Of a stretch of 64,000 bases of DNA, positions 20,251-30,395 are shown one piece after another (position 1 is the first letter of the stretch; every line of letters begins with the position of its first letter). Both the position numbers and the translations under genes were made by a program. The notes below the pieces were generated by a model. It did no database searches. It was given only the letters and a program-made list of their open reading frames with translations, and had not been told where the DNA came from. Origin of the DNA: an uncultured delta proteobacterium. GTDB taxonomy: Bacteria > Myxococcota_A > UBA9160 > JAFDET01. The stretch lies in NCBI GenBank assembly GCA_947259215.1, contig CAMYLJ010000015.1:1-64000 (forward strand), written 5' to 3'.

Positions 20251-20400
20251 ATGTCCGCCGGGGCCCTTCGCGAGCTCGGCCCGCTGCTGCTGCTGACCAT
20301 CGCTCTCGCCGCGCCGACGTGCCCGCCGCGCGTGCGCGTGATCCGTCGGCAAGTCAGGTACGTCCGGCCCGCCAGTCGCGGACACGGGCGGGGTGGATAG
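20251..20400 (+). CDS. possible small secreted peptide
   Basis: A 49-codon open frame that begins MSAGALRELGPLLLLTIALA, resembling a short signal or membrane segment, followed by a basic tail with Pro, Arg and Gly. It starts 18 bp after the CBS gene. There is no clear ribosome site and its end reaches the terminator-like hairpin of the opposite gene. It may be chance coding in GC-rich DNA; it is reported because it fills an otherwise empty gap. Confidence 0.25.
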   Translation: MSAGALRELGPLLLLTIALAAPTCPPRVRVIRRQVRYVRPASRGHGRGG

Positions 20401-20401
20401 A

Positions 20402-20414
20402 GGGGCGGCGCCCC
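20402..20414 (-). terminator. possible terminator of the PEP-CTERM gene
   Basis: GGGGC-GCC-GCCCC on the minus strand lies 35 bp after the stop codon of the frameshifted PEP-CTERM gene and is followed by TCTAT. The stem is short and the T tract poor, so termination is only suggested. Confidence 0.3.
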
Positions 20415-20448
20415 GCGTTCCTCGAAACGGCCAAGGGTCCGCTCCCGA

Positions 20449-21148
20449 CTACTTCCTCCTGGACTTCCTCGCGAATCGTGCAAGACCCAGCAAGCCGGAG
20501 CCGAGCAAGAGAATGGTTGCGGGTTCGGGAACGAGATCTCCTGTGAGATTGAAGGGCCAAGTCGTAATCACTCGTTCCCCAGGATCCAGTCTGGGGGTCT
20601 TCAAAATAGTTGGTTCCGCTGCCGGGACTCGTCGATCCCATCCAGTACCAATCATCTGGATCACCGGAAGTATCGTTCGCAATCACGATGAGATAGGTTC
20701 CTGGGTCGAGGCGAAACGGTGCAACGTCCGCAGAGTATTGAAACAGATGCGGGTTGCCGATAAATCCAGTCAGGACTGTGTTCGTGTCGACTCTCGAGAA
20801 ATTCGTAGAAACCAGCTGCACGCCGTTTCCAGAATCGGGCACTCCCGAGAGGAAAGGATAGATCCAGAAAGAAAAGGAATCAGGCGCGACATAGTCACCC
20901 GTATCTTCTGGGTCAGCAATGTAGATTCCCCACCAATGGATATCGGTAAGAAAGACGGCTTCGGAAACAAGAAAGTCGTCGCCTCTTCCTGCCAGCGGCC
21001 CGAGATCGAGATCACTCGATCCAGCCACGAAATTGGGCAGGAGTGGCTGACCGTTGTCGTAGAAGATCGGGGAGCCCGAAGCCACGACTGGGGTCACGAA
21101 AAGCACCAATACCAGAAACAGAAAAACAGAAACAGATAGGCCCTTCAT
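20449..21148 (-). pseudogene. PEP-CTERM sorting-signal protein, one-base frameshift
   Basis: The reading frame starting at ATG 21148 has a signal peptide (MKGLSVSVFLFLVLVLFV ...) and a beta-rich extracellular domain of about 175 residues. It loses its natural end near 20554-20556. Removing one base of the GGG run there (CCC on the coding strand) restores SDYDLAFNLTGDL and then the exosortase tag VPEPATILLLGSGLLGLARF with basic tail, ending at TAG 20449; the repaired product has about 232 residues. The frameshift is either a real inactivation or a sequencing error at a short homopolymer. PEP-CTERM proteins are processed by exosortase; none is encoded here. Base composition is much lower in GC than the surroundings, suggesting acquired DNA. 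Confidence 0.8.
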
Positions 21149-22483: not shown

Positions 22484-23185
22484 ATGGAGAAGCTGGTCTA
22501 CGTGCTGTGGAACCGGGACGGGGCGACGGGCGCGGACCTGCGCCGGGCGCTCCTGGGGCCCGTTGCCAAGGCCCTGCGCGAGGGTGGAGCCGTGCGCATC
22601 GCGCTGAACGTCTCCGACGAGGACGTGGCCTACGCGCTCTCCTCCCGGCTCACGCACCTCGATCCGCCCCCCGCCGGCCTCTGCTCCTTCTGGCTCGACT
22701 GCGCCGACGATCGCGACGCCTGCGAAGGGGCGCTGGCCGAGGTCTCGGGCCGGCTGGCCGGCTACCTGGTGGTCGAGTCCGAGCCGCTGCTCAACACCAC
22801 GCACGTCGCGCCTCCGGGCGAGCGCACCCCCGGCACCAATCTGGTCGCGTTGATCGAGCGTCCCGAGCGCATGACGTGGGACGCGTGGATCCACCACTGG
22901 CACGGACATCACAAGCGGGTGGCCCTGGAGACCCAGTGCACCTACGCCTACGTGCGCAACGTGGTGGTGCGCCGGCTCAGCGAGGACGCGCCGCCCTGGG
23001 CCGGCATCGTGGAGGAGGGCTTCCCCGCCGAGGCGGTCAGCGACCCGATGCAGTGGTACTGCGCCGACGGCGATCCCGAGACCCTGAAGGCCAACCTGGG
23101 ACGCATGCTCGACAGCTGCCGGGCCTTTCTCGACCTCGACCGGGTCGAGAGCCACCCCATGTCCGAGTACCGCCTCGACCGCTGA
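22484..23185 (+). CDS. EthD-like dimeric alpha/beta-barrel protein
   Basis: A 233-residue protein that looks like two ferredoxin-like barrels in tandem. The N-terminal one starts EKLVYVLWNRDGATGADLRR. The C-terminal one includes NLVALIERPERMTWDAWIHH and WHGHHKRVALETQCTYAYVRN, the His-rich EthD/stress-responsive barrel pattern. EthD-type proteins are accessory or monooxygenase-like proteins in ether, aromatic and steroid metabolism. The pairing with the DUF7064-like gene suggests a common lipid or terpenoid substrate, which is unproven. Confidence 0.7.
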   Translation: MEKLVYVLWNRDGATGADLRRALLGPVAKALREGGAVRIALNVSDEDVAYALSSRLTHLDPPPAGLCSFWLDCADDRDACEGALAEVSGRLAGYLVVESEPLLNTTHVAPPGERTPGTNLVALIERPERMTWDAWIHHWHGHHKRVALETQCTYAYVRNVVVRRLSEDAPPWAGIVEEGFPAEAVSDPMQWYCADGDPETLKANLGRMLDSCRAFLDLDRVESHPMSEYRLDR

Positions 23186-23195
23186 GCTGACGCCC

Positions 23196-24818
23196 TCAGC
23201 TCAAGGCCAGCAATGCTCGCGCCACCGCGATGAGGGTGGCGTTGTATCCAAAGTGGACCGCCACCGCGTCCCACACCGACCCGGTCCGGATCCGTACCGC
23301 CAGGGTCGCCAGCGCCAGGGCGGTCAGCCCGAAGGCGGGCGGCCAGTAGGCCTGGAACTCCGCGTAGTGGAGCCCGATGAAGAGGACGCTCGTGACCACC
23401 GCCGCCGCGGGCACGCCCCAGGACCAGGCGAAGCCGGCGAAGAGCGCGCCGCGGAAGACCAGCTCCTCGACGGGTGGCGCCGCCACGAGGCCGAGGAAGG
23501 TCCAGAGCTCCCGCTGCCAGCCGCCCTCCGCCGCCATCTGCGTCGTGGGCCCCAGGGTGGTATCGGGCGCGGGCCGCCAGAGCGTCGTGCTGAGGCCCAG
23601 GTAGACGCCGGCCACCAGGGCGCCGATCAGGATCGCCGCCACCAGGCTCCCGAGCCGTGGCGTGACCAGCCCCACCTGTCGCAGCAGCGAGGGGCCGCCG
23701 CCCCGACGCGCCCGGCGCAGCACGAGGGCCAGGACCAGGAGTCCGCCCAGCAGCGCGCAGACGATCCCGACCGGCGCCTGGAACTCGAGGGCGGCCTTGG
23801 CGCCGGCATCGGCGTCCCGGAAGTCTCCGCCCCGCGCCGCCACGATGAACGGGCCTGCCATCCCGAGCAGGACGCCGCCGACGGCCTGCGTGCCCAGGTA
23901 GACCGCCAGGAGCCCCAGCGCGAGCACGGCTCCGATGCGGCCCGGGGCCCCGGGCGCCGGTCCCCGCACGTGCCAGCGCGGGCGATCGCCGCCGGTCTCG
24001 ATCTCGATCCGCGTCTCCGGTCCGGCCGCGGCGGCGCGTCGCTCGGCCTCCGCCGCCAGCGCGCCCAGCAGCTCCGGGTCGTGGGTGGCCAGGACGGACG
24101 GGGCTCGTGCGGGCTCGCTCGGCTCGACCACCACGTGACCCGGACCGAGCGTCCGCACCCGGATGCGCTCCCCCGCCGTTTCCGCGGCTGGCGTCGGCGC
24201 CGATTCCATGCCCTCGCCCACCTCGAGGAGCGGGGGACACTCGCCCTGGAGGTCGGCGGCCAGGCCGGCCCGGGTCGCGGGCTCGAGCGCGGTCGCGTGG
24301 CGGTAGCTCGGGTGCCCGATCGCCAGCGCCACCGGCAGCGCGGGATCCGCGAAGCGCGCGGCCTGCCCGGCATCCAGCTGGAAGCGGATGTACTGGACCG
24401 CGGAGATCCGGTCCGACTCCATCTGCTTGGGATCGAAGCGCGCCGGGACCCGCTCGTCGCCGATCCGAAGGTGCACGTGCTCGTCGATCCCGACCAGGCG
24501 ATCGAGCTCGCTTCGGATCTGGCCCAGGTCCGGAATCTCGATGAAGAGCGTCGCCGAGAGCTCACGCTCGCCCGGCACCAGCTCGTTGTAGACGGCGAGC
24601 TCGTCCTGCACGCCCGCCGGATCGTCGATGCGCTCGACCCGGCACATCTCCTGCACCTGGAAGCGCAGGGTCTCCCGGTTCTCGAAGACGACCGTCACGC
24701 GATCGCCCACGGGCACCCGCCGGTCCCGCTTCAGGGCGATGATGCGCGCGCGGTAGTCCGGCCGCAGGCCCTCGTAATGCTGGCGCGGGACGATCTCGCG
24801 CAGCTCGAGGGGCCTCAC
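23196..24818 (-). CDS. DUF3501 domain fused to a CPBP intramembrane protease
   Basis: A 540-residue fusion. Residues 1 to about 185 match DUF3501 ([67 protein letters not shown]). A soluble linker follows. From about residue 285 there are roughly eight hydrophobic segments with the CPBP motifs: [13 protein letters not shown] (the EExxxR-like motif), FIGLHYAEF and HFGYNAT. CPBP proteins are intramembrane glutamic proteases. DUF3501 normally is a separate small protein encoded beside rubrerythrin and an Fe-S oxidoreductase, as here. GTG 24818 overlaps the Fe-S gene stop as GTGA. I found no stop between the domains. Confidence 0.85.
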
Positions 24819-26110
24819 GGCAGCGGGTCCGTCGACAGGCCGCAGGCGTAGCGCAGCAGCACCACCGGATGGACCGCCTTGCGCCCGAGGCCCTCCTCGA
24901 TGCGCAGTGCGGAGAGCGGGCAGTCCGTGGCGATGTGGTCGGGCTCGAAGGCCGCGATGCGGTCGAGGAGCTTGCTCGCCACCTTCAGGGACTCCGCGTG
25001 GAAGCGCGCCTGCATGCCCCAGGTGCCGTCGACGCCCGAGCAGGCGTCCACCAGCTCCACCTCGGCCCCCGCCCAGCGCAGGAGATCCCGGCTCTTGAAG
25101 CCGATGTTCTGGTGCCGCAGGTGGCAGGGGGCGTGGTAGGCCACCTTGCCGAGGGCGTTGGGGAACTGCTTGGGCAGCTGCTTCGCCTTGGCGAGGGCGT
25201 GCACGTGCTCCATCAGGTCGCGGGTGGCCTCGGAGACGCGCCGCGCGCCCTCGTCGCCGAGGAGCTTCGGGTACTCCTCCTTCAGCATCAGCGAGCAGGA
25301 CGGCCCCGGCGCCACCACCACGGCTCCCTGCTCCACGGAGGGAAGCAGCGCGTCCACGTTGCGGCGGGCGTTGCGGCGCGCCGAGTCGAGGTCGCCCACG
25401 TCGGTGAAGGGCATGCCGCAGCAGCGCTCGTAGCAGACCTCGACCCGCACACCCGCGTGCTCCAGGATCTCGACCGCGGCGCGCCCGGCCAGCGGGTCGT
25501 TGTAGTTGACCGAGCAGGTCGTGAAGAGCACGGCTCGCCCGGCCTCGCCGCTGCCGCGGGGGCCGCGCTTGGAGAACCAGCGGTCCACGGTCTCGTGGTA
25601 GTAGCTCGGCTGGACCCAGTCGCGGTGGATCCCGAGCGTCTTCTCCATCAGGAGCCGCGAGGCGCGGTTGCGGTTGGCGAAGTTCATCAGCGGCGGCGCC
25701 AGGCCGCCCACCTTCCCCAGCAGGTCCGTGCGGGTGGTGAGCTTGCGGGCCAGCGGCGTGCCGTCGCGCTCGGCCCGGAAGAGCTGATGGCGCCGCATCA
25801 GCGCCGGGAAGTCCACGTCCCACTCGTGGGGCGGCGTGTAGGGGCAGTGGTTGTAGCAGAGCTTGCAGTGGTAGCAGAGCTCGTTCACCTGCTCGAAGCC
25901 CTGCTCGCTCACGCCTGCGATCTCGCGATCGCTGGCGTCGATCAGCTCGAAGAGCTTCGGGAAGGACGGGCACAGGGGCAGGCAGCGCCTGCACTGGTGG
26001 CAGATCTCCCCGACCCGGCGAAGCTCGCGTTCGAGCTTCGCCGGGTCGAGATAGTCGGGATCCTCGTAGCGCCAGTCGGCGGACGGGCGCTCGGGGGGAG
26101 GGACCTTCAT
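24815..26110 (-). CDS. (Fe-S)-binding protein with CCG domains (GlpC-like)
   Basis: A 431-residue redox protein. Near the N-terminus two ferredoxin-type clusters appear ([13 protein letters not shown] and [16 protein letters not shown]). Two cysteine-rich CCG modules follow: CCGMPF after TTCSVNY, and APCHLRHQ with [11 protein letters not shown]. It resembles GlpC and heterodisulfide-reductase subunits but lacks a partner flavoprotein here. It belongs to a conserved trio with rubrerythrin and DUF3501, thought to act in peroxide or oxidative-stress handling; the electron donor is unknown. The next gene upstream, rubrerythrin, ends 12 bp away. Confidence 0.88.
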
Positions 26111-26122
26111 GTCCCGGGACCG

Positions 26123-26548
<426 letters not shown>

Positions 26549-26572
26549 CATTCCCTCCAGTGCTTCTGAGCC

Positions 26573-28074: not shown

Positions 28075-28554
28075 ATGAACGCGCTCCAGATCCACCCCGA
28101 GAAGTGCACCGGCTGCAAGCAGTGCGAGCTGGCCTGCTCCTGGGTCCAGACCGGGGGCTTCCAGCCCTCGCGCTCGCTGATCCGGGTCCACATCTTCGAC
28201 GAGCAGGCGAGCTACGCGCCCTACACGTGCTTCCAGTGCGACGAGGCCTGGTGCATGCAGGCCTGCCCGGTGAATGCCATCGACGTGGACGAGGCCAGCG
28301 GCGCCAAGATCGTGCTGGACGAGGTCTGCGTCGGCTGCAAGCTGTGCGTGATCGCGTGTCCCTTCGGCACGATCTTCTTCGACAAGCCCGGCGGGGTGGC
28401 CGCCAAGTGCGACCACTGCGCCGGGGATCCGGCCTGCGCGAAAGTCTGCCCCACCGCGGCCATCGAGTGGACGCAGGCGGACCCGGGTGCCTGGATCGGG
28501 CCCTTCGGCGATCGGGTCGACCGGGACTACCGGGCAGCAGAGGAGGCGGACTGA
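28075..28554 (+). CDS. aorA: four-cluster ferredoxin subunit of aldehyde oxidoreductase
   Basis: A 159-residue electron-transfer protein of the HycB/NrfC type. Four cysteine clusters are visible: CTGCKQCELACS, CFQCDEAWCMQACPV, CVGCKLCVIACPFG and CDHCAGDPACAKVCPT, enough for four 4Fe-4S centres. It should carry electrons from the AOR subunit encoded next (TGATG overlap at 28552-28556) to the FAD subunit. The set matches AorA of the Aromatoleum-type AOR complex. There is no signal peptide, so it is cytoplasmic. Confidence 0.9.
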   Translation: MNALQIHPEKCTGCKQCELACSWVQTGGFQPSRSLIRVHIFDEQASYAPYTCFQCDEAWCMQACPVNAIDVDEASGAKIVLDEVCVGCKLCVIACPFGTIFFDKPGGVAAKCDHCAGDPACAKVCPTAAIEWTQADPGAWIGPFGDRVDRDYRAAEEAD

Positions 28555-30395
28555 TGCACGGCTGGACGGGCTGCGTGCTGCGGGTGGATCTGTCGACCGG
28601 CGCCATCGGACGCGAAGAGCTGAACCCCGACTGGGCTCGGGACTTCGTCGGCGGCCGCGGCATCGGCGCGCGTTACCTGTGGCAGGAGGTCGATCCCCAG
28701 GTCGATGCGCTGGCTCCGGAGAACAAGCTCATCTTCGCCACGGGCCCCCTCACCGGCACCAACGCCTCCTGCGGCTCGCGCTACATGGTCGTCACCAAGG
28801 GGCCGCTCACCGGCTGCATCACCACCTCCAACTCCGGCGGCCATTGGGGCCCGGAGCTGAAGTTCGCGGGCTACGACCTGCTGATCCTGGAGGGACGCGC
28901 CGAGCGACCGGTCTATCTCTGGATCTTCGACGACGTGGTCGAGCTGCGGCCCGCGGAGCACCTGTGGGGCACGGGCGTCTTCGACAGCGAGGACGCGATC
29001 CGGCGCGAGACCGGGATCCCCGGCACCTCGGTCGCTTGCATCGGACCCGCGGGCGAGAACCTCGTGCGCTACGCGGCCATCCTGAACGACAAGTTCCGGG
29101 CCGCGGGCCGCTCGGGCGTGGGCGCGGTGATGGGCTCGAAGAACCTGAAGGGCATCGCGGTGCGTGGGACGGGCGCGGTCTCGGTGGCGGACCCGAGCGC
29201 GCTGATGGCGGCCCAGTGGGCCCAGAAGCAGGTGCTGTCGGAGGCGCCGCTCACCTCGGAGGGTCTCCCCGCCTACGGCACGCTGGCGCTCATGAACGTG
29301 ATCAACGAGCACGGCGCGCTCCCCACCCGGAACTACCGCGAGGCGCAGTTCGAGGAGGCCGAGGCCATCTCGGGCGAGGAGCTGGCGCAGACGCGGCTGG
29401 CGGCCAACAAGGCCTGCTTCGCCTGCACCATCGCCTGCGGGCGGGTCTCGCGGATCTCCGAGGAAGGGCGGGCGCGCTACACGCTGAACACGAGCCCGCG
29501 CAACTGGAAGCACGCGACGGAGGGACCGGAGTACGAGAACGCCTGGTCCCTGGGCGCCGACTGCGGCGTGGCGGACCTGGACGCGATCCTCAAGGCGAAC
29601 ACGATCTGCAACGACCTGGGCCTGGATCCGATCTCGCTCGGGGCCACCATCGCGGCGGCCATGGAGCTGTACGAGGGCGGCGTCCTCAGCGAAGAGCAGA
29701 CCGGGATGCCGCTGCCCTTCGGGAGCGGAGACGCGCTGGTCGCGCTGTCCGAGGCCACGGGCTACCGCCGGGGCTTCGGCGACGACCTGGCCGAGGGCTC
29801 GAAGCGGATGGGCGAGAAGTACGGCCATCCCGAGGTCTTCATGGGCGTGAAGGGGCAGGAGTTCCCGGCCTACGATCCGCGCGCGCTTCAGGGAATGGGT
29901 CTCGGCTACGCCACCAGCAACCGCGGAGCGTGTCACTTGCGGGCGTACACGGTGGCGGCGGAGGTGGTGGGAGAGCCGGAGCCGATGGATCCGCGCGCCA
30001 CCGAAGGGAAAGCGCAGCTCGCGGTGGACATGCAGAACATCTCGACGGCGGTGGATGCCGCCGGCCTCTGCGTATTCCTGACCTTCGGCAACACGCTGTC
30101 GGACCTCACGCCGCTGGTGGCTGCTGCCACCGGCATCGCCTACGACGACGACGCGCTGGTGCGGGCGGGCGAGCGGATCTGGAACCTGGAGCGGCTCTGG
30201 AACCTGCGCGCCGGCATCGACCCGAGCGAGGACAAGCTGCCGAAGCGGATGCTCGAGGACGCGATTCCGGCCGGCCCGGCGCGGGGAGAGGTGAGCCGGC
30301 TCGCCGAGATGCTGCCCGAGTACTACGCGGTGCGAGGCTGGTCCCCCGACGGCCGTCCGGACGCGGCGAAGCTGGCCGAGCTCGGGCTGGGCTAG
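28554..30395 (+). CDS. aorB: tungsten-type aldehyde ferredoxin oxidoreductase
   Basis: A 613-residue AOR family enzyme that oxidises aldehydes to carboxylic acids (or the reverse) with a bis-pterin tungsten or molybdenum centre and one 4Fe-4S cluster. The N-terminal domain MHGWTGCVLRVDLSTG and GGRGIGARYL is typical, as are GPLTGTNASCGSRYMVVTKG and NGGH-like SNSGGHWGPELKFAGYD. Cluster ligands are Cys288, Cys291 and Cys295 (CFACTIAC) and probably Cys506 (AGLCVF). The metal cannot be deduced from sequence. Its operon has the AorA, MoaD-like, AorC and MoaD-like order. Confidence 0.95.
   Translation: MHGWTGCVLRVDLSTGAIGREELNPDWARDFVGGRGIGARYLWQEVDPQVDALAPENKLIFATGPLTGTNASCGSRYMVVTKGPLTGCITTSNSGGHWGPELKFAGYDLLILEGRAERPVYLWIFDDVVELRPAEHLWGTGVFDSEDAIRRETGIPGTSVACIGPAGENLVRYAAILNDKFRAAGRSGVGAVMGSKNLKGIAVRGTGAVSVADPSALMAAQWAQKQVLSEAPLTSEGLPAYGTLALMNVINEHGALPTRNYREAQFEEAEAISGEELAQTRLAANKACFACTIACGRVSRISEEGRARYTLNTSPRNWKHATEGPEYENAWSLGADCGVADLDAILKANTICNDLGLDPISLGATIAAAMELYEGGVLSEEQTGMPLPFGSGDALVALSEATGYRRGFGDDLAEGSKRMGEKYGHPEVFMGVKGQEFPAYDPRALQGMGLGYATSNRGACHLRAYTVAAEVVGEPEPMDPRATEGKAQLAVDMQNISTAVDAAGLCVFLTFGNTLSDLTPLVAAATGIAYDDDALVRAGERIWNLERLWNLRAGIDPSEDKLPKRMLEDAIPAGPARGEVSRLAEMLPEYYAVRGWSPDGRPDAAKLAELGLG

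Follow-up and report, generated by a model that had tools for sequence, protein, structure and literature searches.

A DUF3501 protein of a myxococcotal aerobic-type rubrerythrin cluster carrying a HIT-like domain and a CPBP/Rce1-like membrane domain

The window (the whole stretch of 64,000 nucleotides analyzed here) contains one gene that joins a DUF3501 domain, a HIT-like domain and a CPBP intramembrane protease domain in a single reading frame, next to the other two genes of an aerobic-type rubrerythrin system. The reading we favor, to which we give roughly an even chance, is that the product is a real three-domain membrane protein of this system, which would tether DUF3501 and, by extension, its partners to the inner membrane. 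As a novelty, the order's DUF3501–HIT-like architecture is both broader and safer; the CPBP fusion is a real-looking singleton. The gene, its parts and its neighbors are as follows.

23196 to 24818, minus strand: three-domain gene DUF3501–HIT-like–CPBP, 540 aa, GTG start, TGA stop
24249 to 24818, minus strand: DUF3501 domain (aa 1–190), from Pfam and the match to 3FJV
23961 to 24182, minus strand: degenerate HIT domain (aa 213–286), catalytic His triad lost, from profile, Pfam and Foldseek
23199 to 23960, minus strand: CPBP/Rce1-like intramembrane protease domain (aa 287–540), ∼7 predicted TM helices, from Pfam and hydropathy
23448 to 23468, minus strand: CPBP motif 1, EELVFRG (EExxxR), aa 451–457, from the sequence
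23367 to 23381, minus strand: CPBP motif 2, FIGLH (FxxxH), aa 480–484, from the sequence
23241 to 23255, minus strand: CPBP motif 3, HFGYN (HxxxN), aa 522–526, from the sequence
24815 to 26110, minus strand: RFO, a GlpC-like Fe-S oxidoreductase with CCG domains
26123 to 26551, minus strand: aerobic-type rubrerythrin (RBR), 142 aa, no rubredoxin domain
22484 to 23185, plus strand: convergent EthD-domain gene, a neighbor kept in the three nearest relatives

The sequence-only reading had placed the fusion within a trio of RBR, RFO and DUF3501, and this agrees with the published aerobic-type rubrerythrin system, which is defined by the same three clustered genes (PMC5114695). The window shares with that system a rubredoxin-less rubrerythrin and an adjacent GlpC-like RFO, whose best match was GlpC (E 6.4e-70, below the NCBIfam cut-off), and differs from it in that its DUF3501 bears HIT-like and CPBP membrane domains. 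In the published system DUF3501 has no assigned function, and the route by which electrons reach the rubrerythrins is unsettled (PMC5114695). Gene fusions of DUF3501 with RFO have been reported, for example in Nitrosomonas (PMC5114695); there, as in the window, DUF3501 is joined to another protein, but the Nitrosomonas partner is the trio's own RFO, whereas the partner in the window is a membrane protein foreign to the trio. On the plus strand (28075–30395), a ferredoxin-like gene and, after it, one resembling aldehyde ferredoxin oxidoreductase lie beside the fumarase and rubrerythrin genes.

The N-terminal domain was assigned by Pfam DUF3501 (PF12007), which aligned to aa 5–190 over profile positions 3–187 of 187 (E 7.7e-65), and by the structure model, whose DUF3501 part matched the crystal structure 3FJV at a TM of 0.91 of the target (Foldseek). 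3FJV, a Burkholderia pseudomallei protein of unknown function, has this fold in common at 36% identity but is DUF3501 alone, whereas the window protein adds further domains. The sequence-only reading had described two domains, with DUF3501 running directly into CPBP, and so overlooked the HIT-like domain between them; the actual joint is between HIT-like and CPBP.

Evidence for this middle domain came from both sequence profiles and structure models. A profile built from 20 C-terminal extensions of DUF3501 gave 37 matches in the PDB, nearly all of them HIT proteins (best E 2.5e-6), and Pfam HIT was found in 11 of the 20 extensions themselves (best E 4.7e-7). When the AlphaFold2 model of a relative (L069, mean pLDDT 91.6) was searched with Foldseek, Fhit, HINT and hinT structures occupied ranks 3–50 behind 3FJV, and the window protein's own model returned the matches in the same order with weaker HIT scores. 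Residues 213–286 share fold and sequence profile with the HIT superfamily (Fhit, HINT) but are shortened relative to it, and the catalytic HxHxHxx motif is absent in all aligned members (RPRWHVRG in the window; for example LRIDLFAP in relatives), indicating that the domain is HIT-like and probably non-catalytic. Relatives from the same family align no further than residues 287–301 of the fused protein and stop with TAG where the “(R)PRW(H/I)VR” strand ends or no more than a few residues from that point; in the three nearest relatives the DUF3501 protein ends just past the HIT-like domain, beside the convergent EthD gene. Because the relatives' genes end after the HIT-like stretch, residues 213–286 belong to the DUF3501 gene and not to the protease. 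No description of a HIT-like extension of DUF3501 was found in the literature searched.

Among the DUF3501 genes that we read, 23 from the UBA9160-like Myxococcota order, the window's included, carry this extension, and sampled genes from outside the order end at about residue 190. In a tree of the DUF3501 domain the HIT-bearing rows group together with one exception (L016), the deep branches being weakly supported; the window protein is sister to three family members (98/77), and order members without the extension form a separate lineage common to the rest of the class. The C-terminal slot of the HIT-bearing group has been replaced several times; it is truncated in G309, and three further variants carry other sequences there, each of these four variants being known from one draft genome.

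5001 to 6188 of L071/G319 (Myxococcales MAG, B22T1B5): DUF3501 joined to a two-TM HAMP-like membrane module
5001 to 6080 of L078/G074: DUF3501 with a DUF6998 domain (E 1.2e-10) in place of HIT-like
4998 to 5870 of L076/G030: DUF3501 followed by ∼95 residues of an unrelated, helical C-terminal tail to which Pfam gave no match

The HAMP-like module of L071 is unrelated to CPBP and has DUF3501-free relatives, one in the same genome (55%) and one in G347 (45%).

The CPBP fusion itself was found in none of the three same-family genomes, in none of 80 genomes of the order and in none of the best 80 of 181 relatives from a collection of 84,980 species, which was scanned with patterns in DUF3501. The proposed search for the same architecture thus gave no second DUF3501/CPBP fusion in the genomes searched. 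Absence from all relatives, which the sequence-only reading had named as counting against it, is what these genomes gave for the CPBP part; accordingly, this part is a lineage-specific singleton and not a conserved system, and the fusion rests on one draft assembly (128 contigs). Judged from this distribution, the CPBP domain is a gain confined to the source genome's lineage and later than the HIT-like domain.

The in-frame fusion of DUF3501 and CPBP claimed earlier holds at the level of the frame, which runs from 24818 to 23196 on the minus strand as 540 codons without interruption and contains both Pfam domains; its GTG start overlaps the RFO stop (GTGA). Codon-usage log-odds preferred frame 0 in each 20-codon block scored from codon 180 to codon 340, across the joint, and GC3 there was 0.83–1.0 everywhere. 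The two shifted frames have no stops close to the joint, the next one lying at codon 396 in one frame and the other frame having none within the ORF. Allowing for a one-base indel would thus expose no concealed DUF3501 stop, and a hidden frameshift between the domains was ruled out as the cause on this ground. The order FumC–RBR–RFO–DUF3501–EthD is identical in the three nearest relatives (L064–L066), and synteny kept on both flanks means that the contig is not mis-joined there, which rules out a chimeric contig.

These results bear on the idea that two neighboring genes were merged by an assembly or base-calling error, which we regard as quite improbable. It is favored by the single draft, by a PEP-CTERM gene that seems to be frameshifted and lies ∼3 kb from the fusion on this contig, and by a GC-rich palindrome, CCCGGGGCCCCGGG, inside the linker; against it, an indel is no explanation, a precise substitution removing a stop would be needed, and GTG codons 283 and 297, near the CPBP start, have no well-spaced ribosome site. 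Judged from the sequence, the DUF3501–HIT-like–CPBP joint looks real, but it is a singleton.

The C-terminal half is a CPBP/Rce1-like domain both by profile (Pfam PF02517, aa 438–527, E 8.5e-14) and by its motifs, for when the residues of EELVFRG and the two His motifs singled out earlier were checked in the sequence, all three CPBP motifs were intact. Hydropathy gave six clear hydrophobic helices plus the EELVFRG helix in this half and no hydrophobic helix in the N-terminal soluble half (maximum mean 0.85). The most positive loop (RRARR...R) comes after TM2, and the N-terminal half is therefore predicted to be cytosolic. The CPBP half was modeled at low confidence (pLDDT about 40–75, few relatives), with no CPBP match from Foldseek, and a PDB sequence search with this half gave nothing beyond chance matches. 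It resembles known CPBP/Rce1 proteases (MmRce1, the myxosortase MrtX, MrtJ) in the three motifs, length and helix count but differs from them in carrying a 286-residue soluble N-terminal half and in falling under the NCBIfam cut-offs for named subfamilies. A myxosortase/Mrt sorting protease was rejected on the same profiles (MrtJ 34 bits, cut-off 75; MrtS 16, cut-off 130; MrtX no match).

With regard to origin, the nearest CPBP homologue in 379 genomes of the phylum is a free-standing gene from another order of the class (G147; 41% over 196 residues), which has the EELxFRG and HFxYN motifs in common with the window. A duplicate of a CPBP gene of the same genome was rejected, as none of the seven Rce1-like genes there resembles this one beyond family level, and so was an ancestral neighbor of DUF3501, as the flanks (up to 5 kb) of 80 loci held no match.

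A free-standing homologue would fit a neutral, recent stop-loss fusion in which DUF3501–HIT-like and CPBP work separately and nothing is gained from their linkage. The singleton status, the intact motifs and a linker of ∼10 Gly/Pro/Ala-rich residues between HIT-like and CPBP all favor such a fusion. We nevertheless consider it unlikely, though it deserves weight, since DUF3501 has gained membrane modules twice within one order, and since the only DUF3501 of the genome bears the load; being single-copy there, the fused form must perform DUF3501's job.

The complete EExxxR, FxxxH and HxxxN motifs, two of which recur in the nearest homologue, also raise the possibility of a redox- or ligand-gated intramembrane protease, in which DUF3501–HIT-like would monitor the rubrerythrin complex and, according to its state, control cleavage of a membrane substrate. 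Myxosortase is a precedent, being a CPBP enzyme that cleaves specific substrates in Myxococcota (PMC11980579), but no substrate gene was recognized nearby, the window protein is no myxosortase by NCBIfam, and the catalytic triad is gone from the HIT-like domain; we consider this gating improbable. Its extension to a rubrerythrin complex bound at the membrane, with DUF3501 and HIT-like gating the protease and coupling peroxide or quinone state to membrane-protein cleavage, is more doubtful still. Proteolytic control, as suggested in the sequence-only reading, would be compatible with the intact CPBP motifs.

Membrane attachment, the other suggestion of that reading, gained support both from the ∼7 predicted helices past the soluble half and from the independent membrane fusion in L071. 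With DUF3501 naturally joined to one membrane module in the window and to another, unrelated one in L071, the evidence favors the membrane over proteolysis as the common factor. We propose that an ancestor in the order had already attached a degenerate HIT domain to the DUF3501 C terminus, and that the source lineage then gained a CPBP gene directly downstream and lost the stop codon, which would have brought the DUF3501–HIT-like half to the inner membrane. This cytosolic half would sit on the membrane's inner face, carried by a CPBP domain with intact motifs that may still cut some substrate. One point against tethering is that a domain serving purely as an anchor could do without intact protease motifs, unless the fusion happened recently or the protease has work to do.

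As a tether, the protein would place DUF3501, and by extension RFO and rubrerythrin, at the membrane close to the quinol pool. GlpC in GlpABC is a membrane-associated subunit that feeds the quinone pool. Since the RFO resembles GlpC, quinol is a natural guess as electron source for a rubredoxin-less rubrerythrin, and the RFO could take electrons from the quinol pool for peroxide reduction; membrane fusions of DUF3501 make this source testable. The order-wide HIT-like extension is, for its part, a candidate ligand-binding or docking domain for DUF3501.

Two further observations concern the surroundings of the gene. About 3 kb from the fusion, a secreted-protein gene (20354–21148, minus strand) occupies a low-GC stretch (about 54–57%), with a PEP-CTERM tail, VPEPATILLLGSGLLGLARFARKSRRK (about 20450–20532), in a different frame, apparently reflecting a frameshift that may be real or an assembly error. 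The stop codons of the fused gene and the EthD gene are both covered by an inverted repeat.

23183 to 23203: inverted repeat TGAGCTGA-cgccc-TCAGCTCA over both convergent stop codons, a terminator-like hairpin

The folding z-score of this repeat is only −1.3, and a hairpin stands at the corresponding place in L004 and L006, after their shorter genes.
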